DNA of 64,000 bases. Origin: Tissierella sp. (lineage in GTDB: Bacteria > Bacillota > Clostridia > Tissierellales > Tissierellaceae). The notes beneath the pieces were generated by a model. That model was not told the DNA's origin. It saw only the letters and a list, made by a program, of their open reading frames with translations, and searched no databases. The stretch lies in assembly GCA_012735585.1 (NCBI GenBank), contig JAAYGX010000124.1:1-64000 (forward strand), read 5' to 3'. Made by a program: the position numbers and the translations under genes. This document shows, piece after piece, positions 482 to 1,214 of the stretch (position 1 is its first letter; every line of letters begins with the position of its first letter).

Positions 482-558
482 GCACCCTTAGCTCAGCTGG
501 ATAGAGTGTCTGGCTACGAACCAGAAGGTCGGGGGTTCGACTCCCTCAGGGTGTGCCA
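482..558 (+). tRNA. tRNA-Arg (anticodon ACG)
   Basis: The acceptor strand GCACCCT pairs with AGGGTGT including a terminal G-T pair. The anticodon stem TCTGG/CCAGA closes loop CTACGAA with anticodon ACG. The CCA is encoded. Positions 506-540 recur, inverted and identical, at 1172-1206. Confidence 0.96.
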
Positions 559-571
559 AATTAAAAAGGTT

Positions 572-621
572 CAAGGGTTTTAAAAATGTATAAATCTCAA
601 TTTAGCCATTTTTAGCCCTTG
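572..621. repeat. imperfect inverted repeat just after tRNA-Arg
   Basis: An arm beginning CAAGGG and containing TAAAAATG (from 572) faces a matching arm CATTTTTAGCCCTTG (ending 621) across a loop of about 16 bases. It lies between the tRNA 3' end and the terminator at 645. A role as a recombinase arm site is only a guess; it could also be plain RNA structure. Confidence 0.4.
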
Positions 622-644
622 CATTATTATATGAATAAACTGTT

Positions 645-670
645 TCCTATCTAAAAAGATAGGATTTTTT
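645..670 (+). terminator. terminator after tRNA-Arg
   Basis: TCCTATCT (645-652), loop AAAA, AGATAGGA (657-664), then a run of six T. A compact intrinsic terminator. Confidence 0.88.
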
Positions 671-721
671 GTGCCCAATTAAGATAAAGGAGATAGAAGA
701 TTTTACGTAATGAGTATAGAA

Positions 722-988
722 CTATAGTAGTTTACTTAAATATAAGTAACAAAGAAAGTTAACTATCATTAGTATAGGCATGCCGACTTTAAAACTGGTT
801 TTTCTTGTTTTATGCTTCATAATATTCATCGATAGTATACCGCCAAGGCTACCTCCAACTAAAGATGTTAAAAATAACAAGGACTCTGGAATTCTCCACT
901 GCTTTCTTTTAGCCTTTTGCTTATCTATTGTAAATAGAAAAAAGTTTATAACATTAATTGCAACAAAATAGTATGATAAATAGTTCAT
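722..988 (-). CDS. DUF1294 small membrane protein
   Basis: This 88-residue protein starts MNYLSYYFVA and has a hydrophobic N-terminal helix, a short basic stretch (DKQKAKRKQWRIPES) and two more hydrophobic stretches. The pattern, with the conserved DKxxAxxxxWRIPE-type motif and a GGxxG turn, is that of DUF1294 membrane proteins, whose function is not known to me. The start at 988 is preceded by GGGAGGA at good spacing, so an in-frame ATG five codons upstream is not used. It lies alone between tRNA-Arg and an inverted tRNA-Arg fragment, so it may be cargo of a lost insertion, although the family is common in chromosomes. Confidence 0.82.
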   Translation of the reverse strand: MNYLSYYFVAINVINFFLFTIDKQKAKRKQWRIPESLLFLTSLVGGSLGGILSMNIMKHKTRKTSFKVGMPILMIVNFLCYLYLSKLL

Positions 989-1115
989 TAAAAATCCTCC
1001 CATGATAACATTGCTTGTATTTGTATATTATATCATATATTATTATTAGTTTCTTAAGTAACTATAATTAGATTTTAATACTTATCTGATTCGTAAATAT
1101 CAAAGATAAATATAA

Positions 1116-1150
1116 ATAAACCTTGTAACTACTTAAGTTACAAGGTTTAT
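1116..1150 (-). terminator. long hairpin, probable terminator of the minus-strand reductase
   Basis: Perfect 15-bp arms ATAAACCTTGTAACT (1116-1130) and AGTTACAAGGTTTAT (1136-1150) with a 5-base loop. The flanking T runs are weak. It could serve either strand. Confidence 0.6.
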
Positions 1151-1171
1151 CCTACGCCATATCTAAGGATA

Positions 1172-1206
1172 TCGAACCCCCGACCTTCTGGTTCGTAGCC
1201 AGACAC
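1172..1206 (-). pseudogene. tRNA-Arg fragment, inverted copy
   Basis: These 35 bases are the exact reverse complement of tRNA-Arg positions 506-540, covering the anticodon arm, variable region and the start of the T arm. Identity stops abruptly at both ends: the D arm is absent and the 3' side continues into unrelated bases that only loosely resemble a T stem and acceptor end. It cannot fold as a tRNA. It sits nine bases past the stop codon of the reductase gene and reads in the same direction as that gene. Confidence 0.85.
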
Positions 1207-1214
1207 TTTATTGA

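Follow-up and report, generated by a model that had tools for sequence, protein, structure and literature searches.

An inverted copy of part of the tRNA-Arg(ACG) gene was identified beside a reductase gene in the window, the whole 64,000-nucleotide stretch of Tissierella sp. DNA analysed here (contig JAAYGX010000124.1). The arrangement is tentatively explained as the scar of a small local inversion, of approximately 0.6 kb and carrying a DUF1294 gene, with an inverted duplication formed at the break in the tRNA; this is the reading preferred here, held with somewhat less than even confidence. The observation behind the original prediction is confirmed and its interpretation partly supported, and the significance of the case is modest.

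The inverted repeat and its surroundings

The intact tRNA-Arg(ACG) gene (482..558, + strand) is the last gene of a tRNA cluster on the window's left edge. It is the only such gene found in the home genome, a 3.0 Mb draft of 237 contigs that is 97.3 % complete. The tRNA-Gly(TCC) gene, which is the upstream neighbour of tRNA-Arg in many relatives, is absent from 361-482 of the window and from the stretches examined in the two genus mates (G001 and G002).

It had been reported that 1172-1206 is an exact reverse complement of 506-540, and the match is in fact one base longer, giving an exact inverted repeat of 36 bases (505-540 against 1172-1207). Extended without gaps, the repeat has 44 of 49 positions identical, with 613 nt separating its arms. 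The left arm (501..549, + strand) lies within the tRNA and the right arm (1163..1211, - strand) is a fragment corresponding to tRNA-Arg positions 20-68. The intact gene and this fragment are the only strong matches to tRNA-Arg in the home genome; the two others listed are of 16 and 14 nt (E values of 0.17 and 2.1). Among 93 phage records with matches, the 20 listed match at the tRNA itself only, with no copy of the fragment. Between the arms, as originally noted, is a DUF1294 gene of 93 aa (722..1003, - strand), which is the only coding content of this 0.6 kb segment and was matched in 43 of the 59 other genomes searched.

The right arm starts 3 nt past the stop codon of a gene for an NADH:flavin oxidoreductase (PF00724; 1215..2282, - strand), the 3′ end of which therefore abuts the fragment. 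A search of 60 genomes that included the home genome found relatives of this reductase in 47, with no match in either genus mate, and 17 relatives from a further search all have 36-57 % identity. An ancient conserved reductase terminator, which would have been indicated had distant genera carried the fragment at the corresponding position, is ruled out, since none of the 11 reductase 3′ flanks of relatives that were read carries the tRNA-Arg fragment. The inverted repeat is specific to the window locus. A functional tRNA mimic in the reductase transcript found no support: the fragment has no match in Rfam, ARAGORN predicts no tRNA there, and what the centroid fold retains is mainly the hairpin described below.

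Terminator-like hairpins behind the fragment and the intact tRNA

Behind the fragment there is a terminator-like hairpin of 17 pairs, T1 (1114..1152, - strand), which is the sole terminator-like site found on the minus strand within 450-1300 and may be the original terminator of tRNA-Arg. Its stem, CCTTGTAAC, starts 26 nt past the TTCGA of the fragment's T-loop on the minus strand. In G002, a hairpin of the T1 type terminates tRNA-Arg(ACG), also 26 nt from TTCGA, the same spacing as in the window. A search with the pattern CCTTGTAAC(N3-12)GTTACAAGG, a 9-bp stem, had a single match in the home genome (3.0 Mb) and a single match in G002; G001 had none, nor did the control with the pattern reversed give any. 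With an 8-bp stem, the hairpin was found at four distinct loci in a sample of 78 sequences (990 kb) in which tRNA-Arg flanks are over-represented, these being the window and the sites directly behind tRNA-Arg in G002, G038, and G187 (the last by eye).

Comparison of flanks points in the same direction. Among 20 tRNA-Arg loci, the 61 nt past the T-loop of the fragment best fit G002, with a score of 14.0 that none of 3000 random window stretches reached; G008 (11.5) and G021 (9.5) likewise lie above every random stretch, and -1.5 is the score for the flank behind the intact tRNA. From the CCA-equivalent position onward, the score against G002 is 15.0, again reached by none of 3000 random window stretches, while the best of 19 other tRNA-Arg flanks scores 12.5 (G012), G001 scores 6.0, and the window's intact tRNA scores -0.5. 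In a terminator-anchored control of 41 stretches, two are T1 itself and the best of the other 39 scores 3.5 against G002.

Between the fragment and T1, the expected rest of the tRNA 3′ end (1153..1171, - strand) is assigned by position only, as its sequence is unrecognisable as tRNA. The 18 nt expected to be T-arm, acceptor, and CCA add nothing (14.0 with them, 15.0 without), and the 26 nt between the T-loop and T1 are weakly tRNA-like, with a shuffle p of 0.06 against G002 and of 0.02-0.43 over 20 loci. Because these 18 nt add nothing, and because the unrelated stem of G012 reaches 12.5, the case for homology of T1 is carried by its exact 9-bp stem, its rarity, and its spacing. T1 shares its stem and spacing with the terminator of tRNA-Arg in G002, which the flank behind the intact tRNA does not resemble. 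The fragment and T1 together therefore probably represent the old 3′ end of a tRNA-Arg unit, altered in between, a conclusion drawn from sequence comparison with fair but not complete confidence. The description of the fragment as sharp-ended thus holds at the T-loop for the sequence itself and not for what lies beyond, where the tRNA-Arg-type hairpin follows 26 nt on at the spacing of the genus mate. Likewise, the copy is on the opposite strand, as stated, and its close match is internal (20-68), yet with such a terminator behind it at tRNA-like spacing it may not be merely internal. No function beyond that of a predicted terminator is proposed for the fragment and T1.

Downstream of the intact tRNA the situation is unusual, though not unique, because the first terminator-like hairpin (645..664, + strand), into which the intact tRNA now reads, is 86 nt past the CCA, whereas in a scripted search the terminator stem begins 0-4 nt past the CCA in 15 of 19 other tRNA-Arg loci. 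The exceptions are G004, in which there is a hairpin near the CCA by eye, and G005, G020, and G014, which are of one genus. The sequence at 556-724 was considered as element-like and rejected, having weak matches in 28 genomes of the family (best foreign E value of 1e-4), the best two of which are within or just before protein ORFs.

Possible explanations for the inverted fragment

For a local inversion, the inferred ancestral order would be tRNA-Arg(+), T1, DUF1294(+), and flavin oxidoreductase(-). Two breaks, one at the end of the tRNA and one just past the reductase stop codon, would have allowed the segment between them to flip. If the tRNA break was staggered, itself an inferred step, or was repaired by replication, everything in the tRNA beyond about position 20 would have been duplicated; one duplicate would stay, keeping the tRNA intact, and the other would travel with the inverted segment, followed by T1, to the end of the reductase gene. 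The reductase would then end on the old terminator of the tRNA, and the tRNA would read into what was formerly downstream of the reductase. The spare copy would since have changed past the T-loop, with the 36 bases of the core either kept the same as the tRNA or brought back to it, perhaps through template switching from one arm of the repeat to the other. Such homogenisation is invoked because a perfect core adjoins a changed tail; a core with 0 changes in 36 beside a much-changed tail needs either this or luck.

What is observed is an inverted repeat, a hairpin of the tRNA-Arg type that follows the fragment at the spacing of a tRNA, and a differing flank behind the intact tRNA. Inverted copies are present at both ends of the segment, as in an inversion with breakpoint duplication, and flipping the segment back would put DUF1294 on the strand used by 51 of the 54 window ORFs of at least 100 aa. 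Evidence for an exchange of flanks is one-sided, in that T1 resembles the terminator behind tRNA-Arg in one genus mate (G002) and no former reductase flank was recognised behind the tRNA. The un-inverted order was not found in any genome searched, G001 and G002 being the closest of these. The gene after tRNA-Arg is RidA in G002 and another gene, DedA-like by reading, in G001; in the home genome RidA is on another contig, and no breakpoint was obtained from it.

Several points count against an inversion. T1 matches one genus mate and differs in the other. The former reductase terminator would be about 86 nt downstream, whereas in most of the 11 relatives it appears to be close to the stop codon (by eye). 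The parallel for staggered breaks is known from flies. Inverted pieces can also arise without inversion, because in G014 an inverted tRNA-Arg piece is 4.1 kb from the tRNA and the relative orientation of tRNA and asnA is unchanged.

A rather unlikely alternative is that an integrative element entered tRNA-Arg(ACG), replaced its 3′ end with one of the element's own, and pushed the native one, terminator included, to the far side of the insertion, the element being subsequently lost or eroded and the fragment turned by a separate later inversion. This accounts for the change in position of the terminator and for the dissimilar flank behind the intact tRNA, and tRNA-Arg(ACG) is an integration target in the order. 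In G042 a 425-aa PF00589 integrase neighbours tRNA-Arg, and tRNA 29-77 recurs as an exact direct repeat at a distance of about 37 kb (L027 2698-2746, L032 7366-8643), an arrangement likely to represent a 37-kb integrated element at tRNA-Arg(ACG). In addition, G038 contains the 3′ half of tRNA-Arg but not the 5′ half, and a viral contig has a tRNA-Arg 3′ half beside an ORF reading like a putative integrase. A 33-nt piece of a different gene, tRNA-Arg(TCG), is present in G036 in direct orientation about 4 kb from the tRNA (L127 5946-5977) and is perhaps from a small element.

Also in favour of an element is the interval 559-46353, in which about 46 kb lie between the tRNA and a block of ruvCAB, queA, and tgt (named by reading). 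In six of nine tRNA-Arg stretches from the family (G010, G020, G004, G013, G025, and G014, but not G021 or the short contigs of G001 and G002), homologues of the genes at 46-55 kb in the window are within approximately 7 kb of the tRNA, making about 46 kb extra in the window. This supports a large rearrangement at tRNA-Arg. The interval has a GC content of 0.28-0.35 and contains no PF00589 gene. It need not be one element, because G002 has the DUF401 gene (16.4 kb in the window) near its own tRNA-Arg without the rest of the 46 kb. No second tRNA-like scar was found near 16.3 or 46.2 kb.

Weighing further against an element, the fragment is in the opposite orientation to the tRNA; the interval between the arms holds DUF1294 only; and of the three matches in the home genome to the PF00589 profile, which represents tyrosine recombinases, none is on the window's contig. 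The exact match spans tRNA position 24 to the T-loop, whereas the repeat in G042 reaches the CCA, and three events are needed. The copy is, as had been argued, not a simple excision scar. Of the two explanations offered instead, inversion after integration fares best in its first half, since inversion is the best explanation, whereas integration is not shown by this contig. Capture of an attP-like tRNA half by the reductase locus agrees with the results in that tRNA-derived sequence was acquired there.

Templated insertion, in which replication changed template to the tRNA gene close by, so that 36-49 of its bases were written backwards into the 3′ region of the reductase, with T1 as the reductase's own terminator, is judged improbable. 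The fragment is short, inverted, near its source, and sharp-ended, and the sequence directly behind it is not recognisably tRNA, all of which suit such an event. It would, however, make a coincidence of the match between T1 and the G002 terminator in stem, spacing, and uniqueness in both genomes, and would leave unexplained why the intact tRNA has no nearby terminator. A resembling case is seen in G014, in which 48 extra aligned columns relative to G020, and 43 relative to G005, lie between the asnA terminator and the next gene. The piece in question (L025 3916-3955) is a decayed tRNA-Arg piece with 35 of 41 positions matching, turned against the tRNA 4.1 kb away; it is absent at that place in G020 and G005, and tRNA and asnA (named by reading) are oriented relative to each other as they are in G020, G005, and G025.

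In another family, G188 has an intergenic piece of tRNA-Arg(ACG) from position 20 to near the CCA (L095 7279-7332; 50 of 53 matching), with the intact gene on another contig. This may be a decayed tRNA copy, because in G202 the corresponding site still has a short stretch resembling a tail (11 of 15). No integrase was seen beside the pieces of the window, G014, and G188, from two families, and all three start at tRNA position 19-20, which may reflect either a common mechanism or a few bases of chance extension. Repeated capture of the tRNA-Arg(ACG) 3′ part into intergenic DNA without an integrase, for example from a tRNA reverse transcript stopping in the D-loop, is considered very improbable. 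A scan of 52 regions (816 kb, 347 tRNAs), excluding pieces within tRNA clusters and tRNAs truncated at the end of a contig, found remote pieces of at least 30 nt for tRNA-Arg only (G014, G042, G038, G188, G036, and the window), which is no test of general capture, as five of the six regions were chosen because of their pieces. Amplification chimeras are often inverted, the draft is in 237 contigs, and this contig begins in a tRNA cluster, but an assembly or amplification artefact joining an inverted tRNA piece is scarcely credible, as the fragment is followed by sequence other than a copy of the genome's own tRNA flank, which a recent artefact would be expected to show.

On the preferred reading of a local inversion, the locus is a small example of a tRNA gene at the end of a cluster remodelled without loss of function, in which the neighbouring reductase gene seems to inherit the terminator of the tRNA. 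It also suggests that tRNA fragments beside tRNA genes are not always the scars of elements, and that the flank behind a fragment can be more telling than the fragment.

Comparison with known systems

Literature on inverted tRNA fragments at islands, or on tRNA pseudogenes with an integrase, was not found, which does not prove its absence. The islands identified by Islander are in tRNA genes, with the tRNA regenerated and a fragment displaced (PMC4383910). The window shares with them an intact tRNA with an unusual downstream sequence and a displaced 3′ part that seems to keep its old flank. Unlike these islands, the window has the opposite orientation, no integrase, an interval of 0.6 kb, and an internal close match, and the Islander filters would reject it (PMC4383910). 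Islander looks for a fragment in the same orientation as the tRNA, a tyrosine integrase in the interval, and an interval of 2-200 kb, here 613 nt with neither of the first two found; it also looks for a fragment that reaches an end of the tRNA, where here the close match is internal (20-68) with a tRNA-Arg-type terminator behind it at tRNA spacing.

Template switching between the arms of inverted repeats makes the arms identical in sharp tracts and can invert spacers (PMC8604942). The spacer inversions described there are from yeast and involve spacers of a few bases, in comparison with 613 nt in the window (PMC8604942).

In Drosophila subobscura, staggered-break inversions leave inverted duplications at their breakpoints (PMC5080602). 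These are chromosomal inversions with duplicated fragments of 128 and 380 bp, whereas in the window approximately 36-58 bp are duplicated around a segment of 0.6 kb, in a bacterium, and the ancestral order has not been seen. The feature that the window shares with these inversions is a duplicated piece, derived from one break, that is present in inverted orientation at both ends of the segment (PMC5080602).
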